Origin: an uncultured Prevotella sp.
GTDB lineage: Bacteria; Bacteroidota; Bacteroidia; Bacteroidales; Bacteroidaceae
Direction: 5' to 3'
DNA: 34,670 nt
Assembly (NCBI GenBank): GCA_946183985.1
Contig: CAMHDT010000007.1
Location: 1 to 34,670 of the forward strand
The notes beneath the pieces were generated by a model. That model was not told where the DNA came from. It was given only the letters and a program-made list of their open reading frames with translations, and made no database searches. This document shows positions 7,270 to 29,749 of this stretch, piece after piece. Numbering within the stretch: the first letter of the stretch is position 1; each line of letters begins with the position of its first letter. A program made the position numbers and the translations under genes.

Positions 7270-8439
7270 TTGAAAAAGATTGCGATACTGACATCGGGCA
7301 TTCTGCCAGTACCTGCCGTTCAGGGCGGAGCGGTAGAGAACCTTGTAGACTACTATCTGGCCTACAATGAGCAGCATCGGCTGTACGACATCACCGTCTA
7401 CAGCGTGTGGCATCCCGATGTGGAAAAGCATCCCGCACGCCAGTCGGCCGTCAACCATTATTATTATATAAAGACAGAGACGCTATGGGCAAAGATAAAG
7501 AAGAAAACACACCAACTGACCCATGGGCAGGAATACTACCACTATACCATAGAATACTTCCTTGAGCAGGCCATGAAGCACATCGGCCGGCAGCACTATG
7601 ACCTCATTATCCTGGAGAACCGCCCTGGCTTTGCGCTGAGCGTGCGGAAAAAGACCAGTGCCAGGTTAGTTTATCACCTGCACAACGACCACCTCAACAG
7701 CACTACCCCACAGGCCAACGACATCTACGAGGCGGCTACGGGCATCATCACCGTGTCCGACTATATTTCCAGCCGAGTACGTTCCATCTGCCCCAACGAC
7801 CGCAAATGCCACACGGTGCACAACGGCATTGACCTGCAACTGTTTCAAAAAGCAGCAGAATGCAATGATGCCAGCGGGATGACGCTGGTATATACGGGGA
7901 GAATCATCAGGGAAAAGGGCATCGGCGAACTCATCGACGCCATGCTGTTGCTCAAAGACTATCCAGAGATAAGCCTTATGGTGATAGGCGGCTCATTCTA
8001 TGCCAACAGCAACGATGCCGACGACTTCATTGAAGAACTGCGACAGAAGGCAGAACCCATCAGAAACAGGATACGCTTCACGGGCTTCGTGCCTTATGTC
8101 AAGGTGCCTGGACTTCTTGCCATGGCCGATGTAGCCGTGCTGCCCTCCACATGGGACGAGCCTTTCGGGCTCACTGTGACCGAGGCGCTGGCCGCGGGCC
8201 TGCCCATCATCACCACGCGCAAGGGCGGCATTCCCGAGATTGTGACAGATCAGAATGCCATTCTGCTCAATGCCGACGAGCATCTTCCTGAGAGTCTGGC
8301 CAACGCTATCCTATACCTCTATCAACATAAAGAGAAACGCGATTCGCTCGCAGCAGCCAGTAGCCAGCAGGCTGCACGCTTCAGTAAAGAGGTCTATGCC
8401 CAGAACTTCTTCCAATGCATCATGAATTATGAATTATAA
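7270..8439 (+). CDS. Glycosyltransferase family 4
   Basis: KIAILTSGILPVPAVQGGAVENL; VYTGRIIREKGIGELIDAM; PSTWDEPFGLTVTEALAAGLPIITT; TTG start. Confidence 0.92.
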   Translation: MKKIAILTSGILPVPAVQGGAVENLVDYYLAYNEQHRLYDITVYSVWHPDVEKHPARQSAVNHYYYIKTETLWAKIKKKTHQLTHGQEYYHYTIEYFLEQAMKHIGRQHYDLIILENRPGFALSVRKKTSARLVYHLHNDHLNSTTPQANDIYEAATGIITVSDYISSRVRSICPNDRKCHTVHNGIDLQLFQKAAECNDASGMTLVYTGRIIREKGIGELIDAMLLLKDYPEISLMVIGGSFYANSNDADDFIEELRQKAEPIRNRIRFTGFVPYVKVPGLLAMADVAVLPSTWDEPFGLTVTEALAAGLPIITTRKGGIPEIVTDQNAILLNADEHLPESLANAILYLYQHKEKRDSLAAASSQQAARFSKEVYAQNFFQCIMNYEL

Positions 8440-17544: not shown

Positions 17545-17628
17545 CGATAGACGAGATACAAAAACAATAACCAATAACCATTCATGATTACCACGAGGTT
17601 ATTGGTTATTGTTTATTGGTTATTGCCC
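17545..17628. repeat. Degenerate heptad array (about 12 units)
   Basis: CGATAGA CGAGATA CAAAAAC AATAACC AATAACC ATTCATG ATTACCA CGAGGTT ATTGGTT ATTGTTT ATTGGTT ATTGCCC. Confidence 0.75.
17562..17614. terminator. 18-bp stem inverted repeat, probable terminator of the 17635-17943 gene
   Basis: AAACAATAACCAATAACC / GGTTATTGGTTATTGTTT with a 17-nt loop; T-rich 3' end on the minus strand. Confidence 0.65.
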
Positions 17629-20227: not shown

Positions 20228-21391
20228 ATGCAAAAGACTACCATACAGACTATGACAAGAAAACTAACTGCAATGATGATGACCGCCTGCATGGCTTTGA
20301 CGGCTGCCGCACAGCCCACGGCCGACGAGGTGATGGCGGTGACGAGAAAGGCCAACGACTACTTCATGGCCAAGTATGCTGACCCCACGGTGCCCACCAA
20401 CGTGAAGAAGGTGCGCCCGTCGAACCTGTGGACAAGGGCCGTGTACTACGAGGGGCTGATGGCACTGAACGAAATTGACCCGCAGCAGCGCTATGTGGAC
20501 TATGCCATGACATGGGCCGACTTCCACCAATGGACACCCCGCAACGGCATACGGACTTGCGACGCCGACGACCAGTGCTGCGGACAGACCTATGTGATGC
20601 TGCAGCGCTATGTGGAGGACGACCAAAAACTGGCTAACGTACTGGCCAACCTGGACTACCAGATGCAGACAGCCAACCCGAAGAACGGGAGCCTCTATGG
20701 CTGGTGGACATGGATAGACGCCATACAGATGGCCATGCCGCTCTACGTGCAGGCCTGGCAGGTGACGGGCGACAGGAAATACCTGGACCACGGCATGACG
20801 ATGTATCGCTGGAGCCGCAACGAGTGCGGTGGCGGACTGTTCAACGTGAAGGAAGGACTGTGGTGGCGCGATGCTGACTATGTGCCGCCCTATAAGGAGC
20901 CCGATGGCCAGCAGTGTTACTGGAGCCGCGGCAACGGCTGGGTGTATGCGGCCCTGGTGCGGTGCATGGAGATGCTGCCGAAGAAGTCGAAGGAGTATAA
21001 GGAACTGAAGAAAGACTTCCTGCTGATGAGCAAGGGGCTGCTGACATGCCAGCGCGAGGACGGTTTCTGGAACCCCAGCCTGGTGTCAACGAACTATGCC
21101 ATGCCTGAGACCAGCGGCACCGCTCTGTTTCTCTACGGCATGTGCTGGGGCATGAGGCAGGGTCTGCTCAAGGAGAAGGACTATGCCGAGGTGTGCCACC
21201 GTGCCTGGGAGGCCATGGTGCGCGATGCCGTTCACCCCGACGGTTTCCTGGGATGGATGCAGGGCACAGGCAAGGACCCCTCGGCCGGTCAGCCGCTGAG
21301 TTACACCAAGATTCCCGACTTCGAGGACTATGGCACCGGCTGCTTCCTGCTGGGCGCAACGGAATACTGGCGCTTCGTGAATAAAGAATAA
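20228..21391 (+). CDS. Glycoside hydrolase family 105 (unsaturated rhamnogalacturonyl/glucuronyl hydrolase-like), secreted
   Basis: Signal peptide MTRKLTAMMMTACMALTAAAQ; WTWIDAIQMAMPLY, YWSRGNGWVYAALVRCMEMLP, GTGCFLLGATE; alternative starts 20216 or 20252. Confidence 0.88.
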   Translation: MQKTTIQTMTRKLTAMMMTACMALTAAAQPTADEVMAVTRKANDYFMAKYADPTVPTNVKKVRPSNLWTRAVYYEGLMALNEIDPQQRYVDYAMTWADFHQWTPRNGIRTCDADDQCCGQTYVMLQRYVEDDQKLANVLANLDYQMQTANPKNGSLYGWWTWIDAIQMAMPLYVQAWQVTGDRKYLDHGMTMYRWSRNECGGGLFNVKEGLWWRDADYVPPYKEPDGQQCYWSRGNGWVYAALVRCMEMLPKKSKEYKELKKDFLLMSKGLLTCQREDGFWNPSLVSTNYAMPETSGTALFLYGMCWGMRQGLLKEKDYAEVCHRAWEAMVRDAVHPDGFLGWMQGTGKDPSAGQPLSYTKIPDFEDYGTGCFLLGATEYWRFVNKE

Positions 21392-21413
21392 AGAATGAAG
21401 AATGAGGAATAAA
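21379..21413. repeat. Heptad array (5 units)
   Basis: GAATAAA GAATAAA GAATGAA GAATGAG GAATAAA. Confidence 0.9.
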
Positions 21414-24229: not shown

Positions 24230-24856
24230 TCATTGATTTCCTTTTGGCTGCTTTTCTTTCTTGGCAAGCATCACAACACGATAGGCGAAATCGGTGACCC
24301 ATTTTTCTGAGAAGCCCAAACGCTTGTTATACTCACGCACGCCCACCACCGTCTTGATGACACCGGCATCTTTGTAGTCGTTCTTGTTGAAAATGTCGTG
24401 AACGGTCTTCTCGGTCATCGAATAGAGTGCTTTCTTGAAGAAGCCCGGTAAGCGCAACTTGAACTTCATGAGATTGCCCATGAGCATCATGACATCCTGC
24501 ACGAAAGCCTGGAACTGGAGCAGATAGGTCTGCACATCCTGAATCTTCTTGCAGCGGCGGCGAATGCTCTGGTCTATCTCCTTGAAGAAGTCATCGTCCA
24601 TGTCATACATCTCCTTCAGCATCTTCTTGCATCGGGCCTTCTCGCCGATGCCCAGACGACCGCCCTGCGTGGGCACGTGAAGCGTGACCTTAAACATACG
24701 CAGGTCGGGCAGTGCGTTAAGGTTGGTAATGCCAAGGTCGGCTGCCATCACAGCCTGAAAATATACGCGAATAAGGGTCATGAAATCTTCCATGCCACCC
24801 ACTTTCTTATCGCCCTCGGCCGTCTTGCGGCCAAAAAGTCTTGAAAAAAATCCCAT
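24230..24856 (-). CDS. Conserved hypothetical protein
   Basis: 208 aa ORF with promoter CAAAGGTA at 24878-24885; no recognised domain. Confidence 0.7.
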   Translation of the reverse strand: MGFFSRLFGRKTAEGDKKVGGMEDFMTLIRVYFQAVMAADLGITNLNALPDLRMFKVTLHVPTQGGRLGIGEKARCKKMLKEMYDMDDDFFKEIDQSIRRRCKKIQDVQTYLLQFQAFVQDVMMLMGNLMKFKLRLPGFFKKALYSMTEKTVHDIFNKNDYKDAGVIKTVVGVREYNKRLGFSEKWVTDFAYRVVMLAKKEKQPKGNQ

Positions 24857-24872: not shown

Positions 24873-25027
24873 GGGTGCAAAGGTACGAAAAAGTTAAGAG
24901 TTAGGAGTTAGGAGCAAAGAGTTTTCTGCTCGGCAAACGCTTAAATAATGTTAAATGCACCATGCATCATGTCTAATTATCCTCATACCTAACTCCTAAC
25001 TCCCAACTTTTTTGTACCTTTGCACCC
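24873..25027. repeat. ~40-bp near-perfect inverted repeat flanking a ~73-bp core, with outward -7 boxes
   Basis: Left 24873-24912 versus reverse complement of 24988-25027: 37/40 identical. Confidence 0.85.
24941..25010. repeat. Drifting heptad array (10 units)
   Basis: TTAAATA ATGTTAA ATGCACC ATGCATC ATGTCTA ATTATCC TCATACC TAACTCC TAACTCC CAACTTT. Confidence 0.7.
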
Positions 25028-25045
25028 TGATAATATTGAGAACTT

Positions 25046-25924
25046 ATGAAAGGAATTGTACTGGCTGGAGGGAGCGGCACACGCCTCTACCCTATCACAA
25101 AAGGCATCAGCAAACAACTGATACCTATTTTTGACAAGCCTATGATATACTACCCTATTTCGGCACTCATGCTGGCTGGAATAAGGGATATTCTCATCAT
25201 ATCTACACCACACGACCTGCCGGGATTCCGCCGATTGCTGGGCGACGGCACAGAACTGGGCGTTCACTTTGAATATGCCGAACAGCCTTCGCCCGACGGA
25301 CTGGCACAGGCGTTCATCATCGGCGAGCAGTTTATTGGCGACGATTGCGTCTGTCTGGTACTGGGCGACAACATCTTCTACGGCTCAGGCTTCAGCGGTC
25401 TGTTGAAGGAAAGCGTGGAAAACGCGGAGGAACACGGACTGACCACCGTCTTCGGATATTGGGTCAACGACCCGGAACGCTATGGCGTGGCCGAATTCGA
25501 TAGTGAGGGCAACTGCCTGAGCATAGAAGAGAAGCCCGCACATCCCAAGTCGAACTATGCCGTGGTGGGCCTCTACTTCTATCCCAACAGCGTAGTAGAG
25601 ATAGCCAAGCACATCAAGCCCAGCGCACGCGGCGAACTGGAGATAACAACCGTCAACCAGACCTATCTCGCTGAGCGGAAACTGAAGGTAAAGACCTTGC
25701 AGCGCGGGTTCGCATGGCTCGACACCGGCACACACGACTCGCTGGCCGAGGCCTCGACCTTCATCGAGGTGATTGAGAAACGGCAAGGGCTGAAAGTGGC
25801 GTGTCTGGAAGAGATTGCCTTCAAGCGCGGATGGATCAGCCGCGAACAACTGAAGGAACTGGCCAAGCCCATGCTGAAGAACGGCTACGGCCAATATATA
25901 GACCGCCTGGCTTCAGACATGTAA
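25046..25924 (+). CDS. rfbA: Glucose-1-phosphate thymidylyltransferase
   Basis: [55 protein letters not shown]. Confidence 0.96.
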
Positions 25925-25968: not shown

Positions 25969-28521
25969 ATGAAAGATAACAAGAAAATAGAACAAGGTTC
26001 GGACAGCATTGAGTTGAAAGAAGAGAACTCCTTCGATATGAGGACGATCTTCACACTGATAGTGCTCAATTGGCAATGGTTTGTTGTGTCAATGTTCATC
26101 TTCGTGTGTGGCGCACTCATCTACCTGCGCTACACAACGCCGGTGTATCAGGTCTCGGCAAAGATGCTGATCAAAGACGAACAGAGCCCACGCAGAAGCA
26201 ACGGACAGATGCTGGCCAACATGCAGGACCTGGGCATCATCTCGAACTCCGCCGGCATAGACAATGAAATTGAGATTCTGCAGTCGCGTATTCTGGCACA
26301 AGAGGTGGTGAAAGACCTGAAGTTCTATGTGGAATACAAAATAAAAGGACGCCTCAGAACGACTTTGGTCTATAAGTATCAGCCTATTAGCGTTGATCTG
26401 GATGAAGAACATCTGGCCGATCTGGACAAACTGAGGTCGAGGTTCAGTTTCAGACTAGAAGAAACTGACAACGGTTATCAGGTAACCGGACTTCAAAACG
26501 AGTTTGAAGCCTCGTTTACCACGCTGCCGGCATCAGTCGAAACTCCTTATGGTACGCTGACCTTCACCAAGAACCTGTTGGCAGAGCAGGAGGAGATAGC
26601 CAATGCCAGAAGGCGTCAGGCTTTCGGCGTTGAGGAAAATGATGAAGAGCAACAGGCACCATCAAGGAAGAAACTGTCGATGGAGATTACCATCATGTCG
26701 CCTGTAAGCGTTGCATCACGCTATGCTGGGTCTATCAGCATTGCACCCACATCGAAAATGACATCTATTGCGCAACTGACGCTGAATGATGTCAATGCTG
26801 AAAGAGCCTATGACTATCTGAAGCATCTGGCTGTGTGCTATAACCGCCAGGCCAATGCCGACAAGAATGAGATTGCCTATAAGACAGAGGAATTTATCAA
26901 CAACCGTCTGGAGAAGATCAATGCCGAACTGGGACAGACGGAGAGTCAACTGGAAGAATACAAGCGCAGAAACGAGATTCTACAGTTGCGAATGGATGCC
27001 ACTCAAACAATGACCCAGGCCAACCAGTATTACAACCAGTTGATACAAGCACAGACGCAGATTCAGATTCTTGACGATTTGCGCCAGTGGATTGGAAAGT
27101 CTGAGAACAGATATCAGATTATTCCATCAAATGTTGGTCTGACAGATGTGGCTTCAGCGGGGCTGATTGCGCAGTACAACAAGACGGTGCTTGACCGCAA
27201 CCGCCTGCTGGCTTCTGCATCCGAGACCTCACCTTCTGTCGTCACCCTGACTGAGGCTCTCGACCAACTGGAAGTGAGCATACGGGAAGCACTGCGCCAG
27301 GCCCGTCGCACCGCCGACATACAGCGCCGAGGCATTGAGACACAATACAGGGAGTTCCAAACGAAAGTTGGCAACATGCCCGAGCAAGAGCGCATCTTAA
27401 CCCAGATTGGCCGCCAGCAGGAAGTGAAGTCGGGCCTGTACCTGATGCTGTTGCAGAAGCGCGAGGAGAACTCTATCTCGCTGGCTGCCACGGCTGACAA
27501 GGGCCGTCTTATCGACGAGCCTGCCTTCGGCGGTAAGGTGAGTCCCAAGAACTCCATCATCATGCTGGCAGCCATCGTATTAGGTTTTGCCATTCCCCTG
27601 CTCATTGTCTATCTGCTACAACTGCTGCGCTACAAGATTGAAGGTCATGAGGATGTGGTAAAACTCACCGATATACCCATCGTAGCCGATGTGGCCGTGG
27701 CCAGCGACTCGGTGAAGAGTTCTGCCGGCATTGTTGTACGAGAAAATGAGAACAACCAGATTGACGAGATATTCCGCGCCATGCGAACCAACATACAGTT
27801 CATGATGGGCGAGAAGGAGAAGGTGATCCTTTTCACCTCATCCACTTCGGGTGAAGGAAAGACCTTCAACGCTGCCAACCTGGCAGTGAGTTTTGCATTG
27901 CTAGGTAAGAAAGTCATACTCTTGGGTCTCGACATACGCAAGCCTGCACTGGGACGCCTGTTTAGCATCACCGACCGCCAAACAGGTATTACCACCCTGC
28001 TGACAAAGGACCATGTTACAGAAGCAGATGTCAATGCTCAAATCAAGCCTTCAGGCGTCAACAAGAACCTTGATCTGCTGTTGGCAGGCCCCACACCTCC
28101 CAACCCCACTGAATTGCTGGCACGCCAGAACCTGAAAGACATTATCGACATGCTGCGCCAGGAGTATGACTATATCATCCTTGACACGGCTCCCGTTGGA
28201 CTGGTGACCGATACCATACAGATTGCCAGAGTGGCCGATCTCACGGCATACGTTTGCCGTGCCGACTATACACCAAAATCGACATTCGAATATGCCAACA
28301 CCTTGAAGGCAGAGAACAAATTGCCCAAGATGTGTATCGTCATCAATGGCATTGACATGTCGAAGAAGAAATACGGCTACTATTACGGCTACGGCAAATA
28401 TGGCAAATACGGTCGCTATGGCCGCTATGGTTCTTACGGTTATTACGGTTCCTATGGCAGTTACGGCAACTACTCCGAAAGCCACTATGGCAAGAAAGAG
28501 GACAATTCTATTAAGAAGTAA
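25969..28521 (+). CDS. Wzc-like polysaccharide co-polymerase / bacterial tyrosine kinase (GNVR + CpsD-type ATPase)
   Basis: Wzz-type N-terminus, Walker A FTSSTSGEGKTFNAANLAVSFA, Walker A' LLGLDIRKPALG, YDYIILDTAPVGLVTD, Tyr-rich C-terminal tail. Confidence 0.95.
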   Translation: MKDNKKIEQGSDSIELKEENSFDMRTIFTLIVLNWQWFVVSMFIFVCGALIYLRYTTPVYQVSAKMLIKDEQSPRRSNGQMLANMQDLGIISNSAGIDNEIEILQSRILAQEVVKDLKFYVEYKIKGRLRTTLVYKYQPISVDLDEEHLADLDKLRSRFSFRLEETDNGYQVTGLQNEFEASFTTLPASVETPYGTLTFTKNLLAEQEEIANARRRQAFGVEENDEEQQAPSRKKLSMEITIMSPVSVASRYAGSISIAPTSKMTSIAQLTLNDVNAERAYDYLKHLAVCYNRQANADKNEIAYKTEEFINNRLEKINAELGQTESQLEEYKRRNEILQLRMDATQTMTQANQYYNQLIQAQTQIQILDDLRQWIGKSENRYQIIPSNVGLTDVASAGLIAQYNKTVLDRNRLLASASETSPSVVTLTEALDQLEVSIREALRQARRTADIQRRGIETQYREFQTKVGNMPEQERILTQIGRQQEVKSGLYLMLLQKREENSISLAATADKGRLIDEPAFGGKVSPKNSIIMLAAIVLGFAIPLLIVYLLQLLRYKIEGHEDVVKLTDIPIVADVAVASDSVKSSAGIVVRENENNQIDEIFRAMRTNIQFMMGEKEKVILFTSSTSGEGKTFNAANLAVSFALLGKKVILLGLDIRKPALGRLFSITDRQTGITTLLTKDHVTEADVNAQIKPSGVNKNLDLLLAGPTPPNPTELLARQNLKDIIDMLRQEYDYIILDTAPVGLVTDTIQIARVADLTAYVCRADYTPKSTFEYANTLKAENKLPKMCIVINGIDMSKKKYGYYYGYGKYGKYGRYGRYGSYGYYGSYGSYGNYSESHYGKKEDNSIKK

Positions 28522-29714: not shown

Positions 29715-29749
29715 AATTGATAATTGACAATGGATAATTGATAATTAAT
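29715..29749. repeat. Heptad array (5 units)
   Basis: AATTGAT AATTGAC AATGGAT AATTGAT AATTAAT. Confidence 0.9.

Follow-up and report, generated by a model that had tools for sequence, protein, structure and literature searches.

The window, that is, the whole stretch of 34,670 nucleotides analysed here, is contig 7 of a metagenome-assembled genome (MAG) of an uncultured Prevotella sp. (2.17 Mb, 165 contigs). A conserved hypothetical gene on the minus strand (positions 24230–24856) encodes a 208-aa protein without a Pfam match, and its transcription would run leftward from the left promoter described below. On the plus strand, rfbA, encoding a nucleotidyltransferase (25046–25924; PF00483, 2e-74), is followed by a gene for a Wzc-like chain-length determinant/tyrosine kinase (25969–28521; Pfam Wzz, GNVR, and AAA_31). 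The Pfam scan of the window ORFs agreed with the original prediction, in which the hypothetical gene and rfbA flank two outward-pointing boxes and a Wzc-like gene comes next. A relative of the 208-aa gene was found in 269 of 299 genomes of the genus; the named relatives of its product are from Prevotella, mostly rumen MAGs, and rfbA lies divergently beside the gene in 27 of the 30 closest loci.

The spacer between the two genes contains an inverted repeat. As predicted, its left arm (24873–24912) and right arm (24988–25027) are complementary at 37 of 40 positions (93%), which is above chance, with a core of 75 bp (24913–24987) between them, and each arm includes an outward-pointing TACCTTTG. 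An exact GTACCTTTGCACC, which occurs 33 times in the own genome, is located at 24874–24886 on the minus strand and at 25014–25026 on the plus strand. The left −7 box (24876–24885, minus) reads TGCAAAGGTA on the plus strand and TACCTTTGCA on the minus strand and is kept in the orthologues; the right −7 box (25015–25024, plus), upstream of rfbA, is also TACCTTTGCA. The left GTTAGGA heptanucleotide array covers 24889–24915 on the plus strand, and the heptads of the right arm are on the minus strand. An exact GAGTTAGGAGTTAGG is present at 24898–24912 (plus) and 24988–25002 (minus), and four heptad matches with at most two mismatches were found, against 0.01 expected. A common promoter word makes up about 13 bp of each arm, and most of the remainder is a repeated 7-mer, the tandem units of which constitute a heptanucleotide simple repeat.

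The −7 boxes resemble those of a known promoter type. According to a study of Bacteroides (PMC7366714), the sigma-ABfr promoter consists of a −7 element, TAnnTTTG, and a −33 element, TTTG, the latter not being universal, since none was identified in Flavobacterium johnsoniae. Both arms of the window carry TAnnTTTG, 19 and 21 bp from the gene starts, thus at about 20 bases from the start codons. The GTTAGGA heptads were indeed found in both arms at the place predicted for the −33 box, but, unlike in the sigma-ABfr promoter as described there, inspection of the positions 21–24 bases upstream of the TA of the −7 box revealed no TTTG in either arm; because this element is missing, the window boxes are assigned to the sigma-ABfr type by the −7 box alone. 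The best reading of the inverted repeat is a divergent pair of Bacteroidota −7 boxes (TGCAAAGGTAC...GTACCTTTGCA) with GTTAGGA arrays, and the start sites are predicted. A terminator or attenuator was also considered and rejected: the predicted starts lie at the ends of the arms, so most of the inverted repeat should escape transcription.

Comparison among Prevotella genomes separated the conserved from the variable parts of the spacer. Of 110 distinct spacers from orthologous loci, 97 contain the outward −7 box pair, which indicates that a mirrored pair of promoter boxes is the starting point of the inverted repeat. The core between the boxes is replaced among these spacers while the box pair stays. 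Fourteen of the 110 pass the heptad threshold, with units that differ between species, and the heptad state changed 10 times on the tree. In the nearest relatives of the window pair, the box-to-box length is 83–84 bp, compared with 149 bp in the window, and thus the window pair has gained about six helical turns. Some sequences recur within long spacers: TAAATAATGTTAAA is common to the window (24941–24956) and a second locus (G121:C237:27635-27772), in both cases around the centre of a long divergent spacer, and similar TTTAAC-containing centres recur in the 134–142 bp spacer class. A divergent pair of boxes 128 bp in length, enclosing a GCATACCATATCAAGGGTATGC-like sequence, also recurs in several species (G031:C72, G032:C32, G032:C63, G106:C62, and G112:C50).

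The box-to-box lengths of the orthologues are not continuous. They fall at 32, 41–42, 52, 61–64, 73, 83–86, 94–95, 102–105, 114–116, 127, 137–139, and 149 bp; the end-to-end distances of the outward −7 boxes are multiples of 10.5 bp. Loci of the own genome that are unrelated to this one showed the same ladder (R = 0.58 at 10.5, n = 42), also with loosely defined boxes (R = 0.50 at 10.6, n = 101). Pattern searches permitting all lengths of 42–102 and 99–159 bp in many Prevotella genomes gave, among the matches listed, 75 pairs in each range. The pooled 150 pairs showed a best period of 10.5 (Rayleigh R = 0.64, p of about 1e-27, a nominal value because pairs from related genomes are partly dependent), and a permutation test reached the observed signal in 0 of 2000 trials for each of the two sets. 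Pairs from other genera of the family, whose distances, like those of a Prevotella pattern set, were read by hand from the listed coordinates, gave the same best period of 10.5 (R = 0.56, n = 73). Outside the family, one genome showed a weak spacing signal (R = 0.35, p = 0.017), and a phylum-wide search yielded four pairs outside the order.

Four controls showed no such period: TGCAAA/TTTGCA pairs that are not promoters (R = 0.09, n = 50), inward box pairs (R = 0.13, n = 74), outward AAAANNTA pairs (R = 0.05, n = 134), and tandem boxes (R = 0.02, n = 80, many weak boxes included). On the tree, the helical class changed 33 times, and where nearest neighbours have unequal lengths, the differences are multiples of 10.5 (n = 18, R = 0.74, p = 5e-5). 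Concordance among several data sets, together with the controls and this tree-based test, carries more weight than the nominal p-values. Heptad-bearing spacers sit on the same 10.5-bp grid (n = 11, R = 0.83). The scatter around the grid points rises with distance, R being 0.82 at short range and 0.50 at long range.

The period of the spacing is also found in the DNA upstream of the boxes. In the sequence upstream of 291 boxes, the A/T content rises and falls every 10.5 bp with an amplitude of 0.079, versus a null maximum of 0.020, and peaks near 6, 16, 28, 38, 49, 58, 70, 80, 91, and 101 bases from the box. Downstream of the same 291 boxes the lattice is absent (amplitude 0.007), as it is at look-alikes (TANNTTTG) deep in coding sequence (0.002, n = 374). 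The latter set was used in place of a control of boxes inside ORFs, which gave the same signal as the promoters and was contaminated by over-extended ORFs. Solitary promoters likewise have A/T-rich patches every 10.5 bp up to about 100 bp upstream, and the lattice is seen when the upstream gene is co-directional (n = 98); in the other families sampled it was not significant (n = 43). Genus-wide, the A/T tracts thus recur at about 10.5 bp in register with the core promoter, as helically phased A-tracts do. The lattice centre obtained from solitary promoters alone, 6.33, predicts a box-to-box distance of 19 + 2 × 6.33, which is 0.16 modulo 10.5, and the observed spacing phase is 10.2 (that is, −0.3). 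A single lattice used by two back-to-back promoters therefore accounts for the ladder, and no special interaction between them is needed.

Within the window, a TTTT tract (24922–24925) lies 38.5 bp inside the left box and a TAATTAT tract (24974–24980) lies 38 bp inside the right box, so that both occupy the strongest lattice position (about 38.5) despite the heptad arms. The central A/T-rich tract TTAAATAATGTTAAAT (24941–24956) is near lattice positions as well, 60 from the left box and 70 from the right. Two features count against the lattice reading of this locus: the 149-bp pair is 2 bp away from the ideal 147, and the arms are GC-richer than is usual for such positions.

We consider it probable, at roughly three chances in four, that the hypothetical gene and rfbA are transcribed from two divergent promoters of the sigma-ABfr type that share a helically phased A/T lattice, with predicted transcription starts. 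The two boxes would be mirrored copies of one promoter word, giving the outer 13 bp of each arm, and heptad arrays of one common unit inside the boxes would extend the arms to 40 bp. Prevotella promoters carry A/T-rich tracts, one for each helical turn, over about 100 bp upstream of the −7 box. AnTn-like tracts have an identical sequence on either strand, which allows one lattice to serve two promoters that stand back to back. An indel turning one box away from the common register would be lost, presumably through selection on transcription, and the box-to-box distance would consequently shift by whole turns. The phased upstream DNA, curved or wrapped, probably serves to fix the rotational position of RNA polymerase, and the lattice may be read by alpha-CTD or a nucleoid protein. 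We extend this proposal with less assurance, judging the chances nearly balanced but leaning slightly against it, to the Bacteroidaceae: their promoters may depend on a phased A/T code reaching at least 100 bp upstream and read by polymerase wrapping or a nucleoid protein, and divergent spacers would thus evolve by whole turns.

How the arms acquired their similarity is a separate question of origin, for which quasipalindrome correction is an answer compatible with the divergent promoter pair. Template switching between the promoter arms may have copied one heptad array to the other and lengthened the inverted repeat. The same inverted unit at an equal distance from each −7 box in the window speaks for such an event, as does a similar two-arm layout with GTTAGG-like units at two other loci (L081 and G121:C237), but arrays that arose independently from one preferred unit would show such a resemblance too, and we regard the event as somewhat more doubtful than not.

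As for the quantised spacing itself, its cause could be two RNA polymerases touching each other, or a bridging regulator, instead of the shared lattice, because the two boxes do hold one rotational relation. This is unlikely: the quantisation extends to 32–63 bp, where, judging from the footprint size, two polymerases would hardly fit together, and solitary promoters have a lattice whose phase predicts the spacing. Still less probable is the insertion between the genes of a mobile palindromic element (MITE or REP-like) with −7 boxes on its ends. Dispersed intergenic repeats with −7 boxes at their edges do exist in the own genome, and a 34-bp perfect hairpin lies between two boxes at L117:6619, but the box pair is ancestral at the present locus, and beyond the promoter word the inverted repeat has no second copy in the 0.81 Mb searched. 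The hairpin (TGCAAAGGTACGATTAAGTGAGAGAAAAACC..., L117:6619-6691, G000:C23), flanked by outward −7 boxes, is more perfect than the inverted repeat of the window. In a dispersed intergenic repeat at four loci (L099, L122, L124, and L127), GAGGTGCAGCCTACCTAAGACCGACAGGTCAAAGGTA adjoins −7 boxes, and related promoter-edge repeats in the 0.81 Mb include CTCACTTATTCGTACCTTTG (8 copies) and CTCGGTTTGCACTACCTTTG-like sequences (9 copies).

The phase-variation switch suggested by the original prediction, in which a site-specific recombinase acting on the 40-bp arms would flip the 75-bp core and alter the expression of the hypothetical gene and rfbA, is the most improbable reading: arms matching at 37/40 positions, 75 bp apart, do adjoin polysaccharide genes, but the −7 boxes lie in the arms and would stay in place upon a flip, as the prediction itself had pointed out, the arms combine simple repeats with a frequent promoter word, and no recombinase was found in Pfam scans of the main window ORFs. 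A search of the own genome for other copies of the arm heptad sequence, proposed as a check, found none, and the sequence is therefore not a shared invertase site. The published invertible promoters of Bacteroides (Mpi and related; PMC4747536, PMC8748976) likewise combine inverted repeats, promoters, and polysaccharide genes; there, however, the inverted repeats enclose the promoter, which flips, whereas the window promoters are within the arms, with neither a nearby invertase among the window ORFs scanned nor arms common to several loci of the genome. Among similar orthologous core pairs, 30 of 189 matched better when inverted, those listed being mostly heptad-rich, A/T-rich, or near-palindromic, and no convincing flip was recognized. 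Two heptad spacers (L084 and L289) contain the array in opposite orientations, which separate origins of the arrays also explain.

Parts of the proposed arrangement have precedents. In Synechocystis, helically phased A-tracts are aligned with the core promoter genome-wide, which its authors call the first genome-wide observation of such a kind (PMC9825172). The Prevotella lattice shows a similar genome-wide register between A/T tracts and the core promoter, but in a different phylum and with a different promoter type; it is traced to about 100 bp, and the divergent spacing is quantised. The bidirectional promoters of E. coli, in which overlapping promoters commonly start 10, 18, or 23 bp apart (PMC12825309), share the pseudo-symmetric divergent layout, whereas the Prevotella box pairs range in length from 32 to about 190 bp in one-turn steps. 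The accessible part of the sigma-ABfr study, with a motif search spanning −50 to +1, does not describe a phased lattice (PMC7366714). A search of the open-access literature gave no account of divergent promoters whose spacing over 30–190 bp is quantised in helical turns. Phased A-tract promoters and heptamer arrays are known; the quantised divergent spacing looks new. The lattice would be a second case after Synechocystis, in an unrelated phylum and with an evolutionary signature in the whole-turn spacer changes. A false lead, the invertible capsule switch, is replaced by a testable rule for an abundant gut and rumen group, namely, that divergent promoters lie whole turns apart on a shared A/T lattice. 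The rule is relevant to promoter recognition by a sigma factor whose −33 element is weak, and it offers a route to promoter prediction from raw sequence.

The heptads are best explained as simple-sequence filler recurring in the spacers of different lineages. In 0.813 Mb of the own genome there are 74 tandem arrays of 7-bp units (about 91 per Mb); other periods mostly gave 0–10 arrays, with 30 at 9 bp, and Markov simulations produced no 7-bp arrays. GTTAGGA is confined to this locus in the own genome, yet frequent in two relatives. Abundant 7-bp tandem arrays, many of them intergenic, are a feature shared with the described TAACTGA repeats (PMC4679880), a report that cites an earlier survey with heptamers as the commonest long simple-repeat class; the Prevotella genome differs in having many units (35 canonical units in the sample), and the preferred ones vary by species. 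The idea that the heptads act as stop-codon spacers was rejected: on one strand or the other, every one of the 74 arrays places a stop in one or more frames, yet about 79% of random AT-rich heptads have this property as well, and the units are non-independent. Further arrays occur in the window at 8415–8437, 17596–17625, 21378–21410, and 29715–29746. A GGTGAGA-type array at L109:6504-6539 is apparently in a reading frame, and the unit that would place TGA in frame reads TCA.
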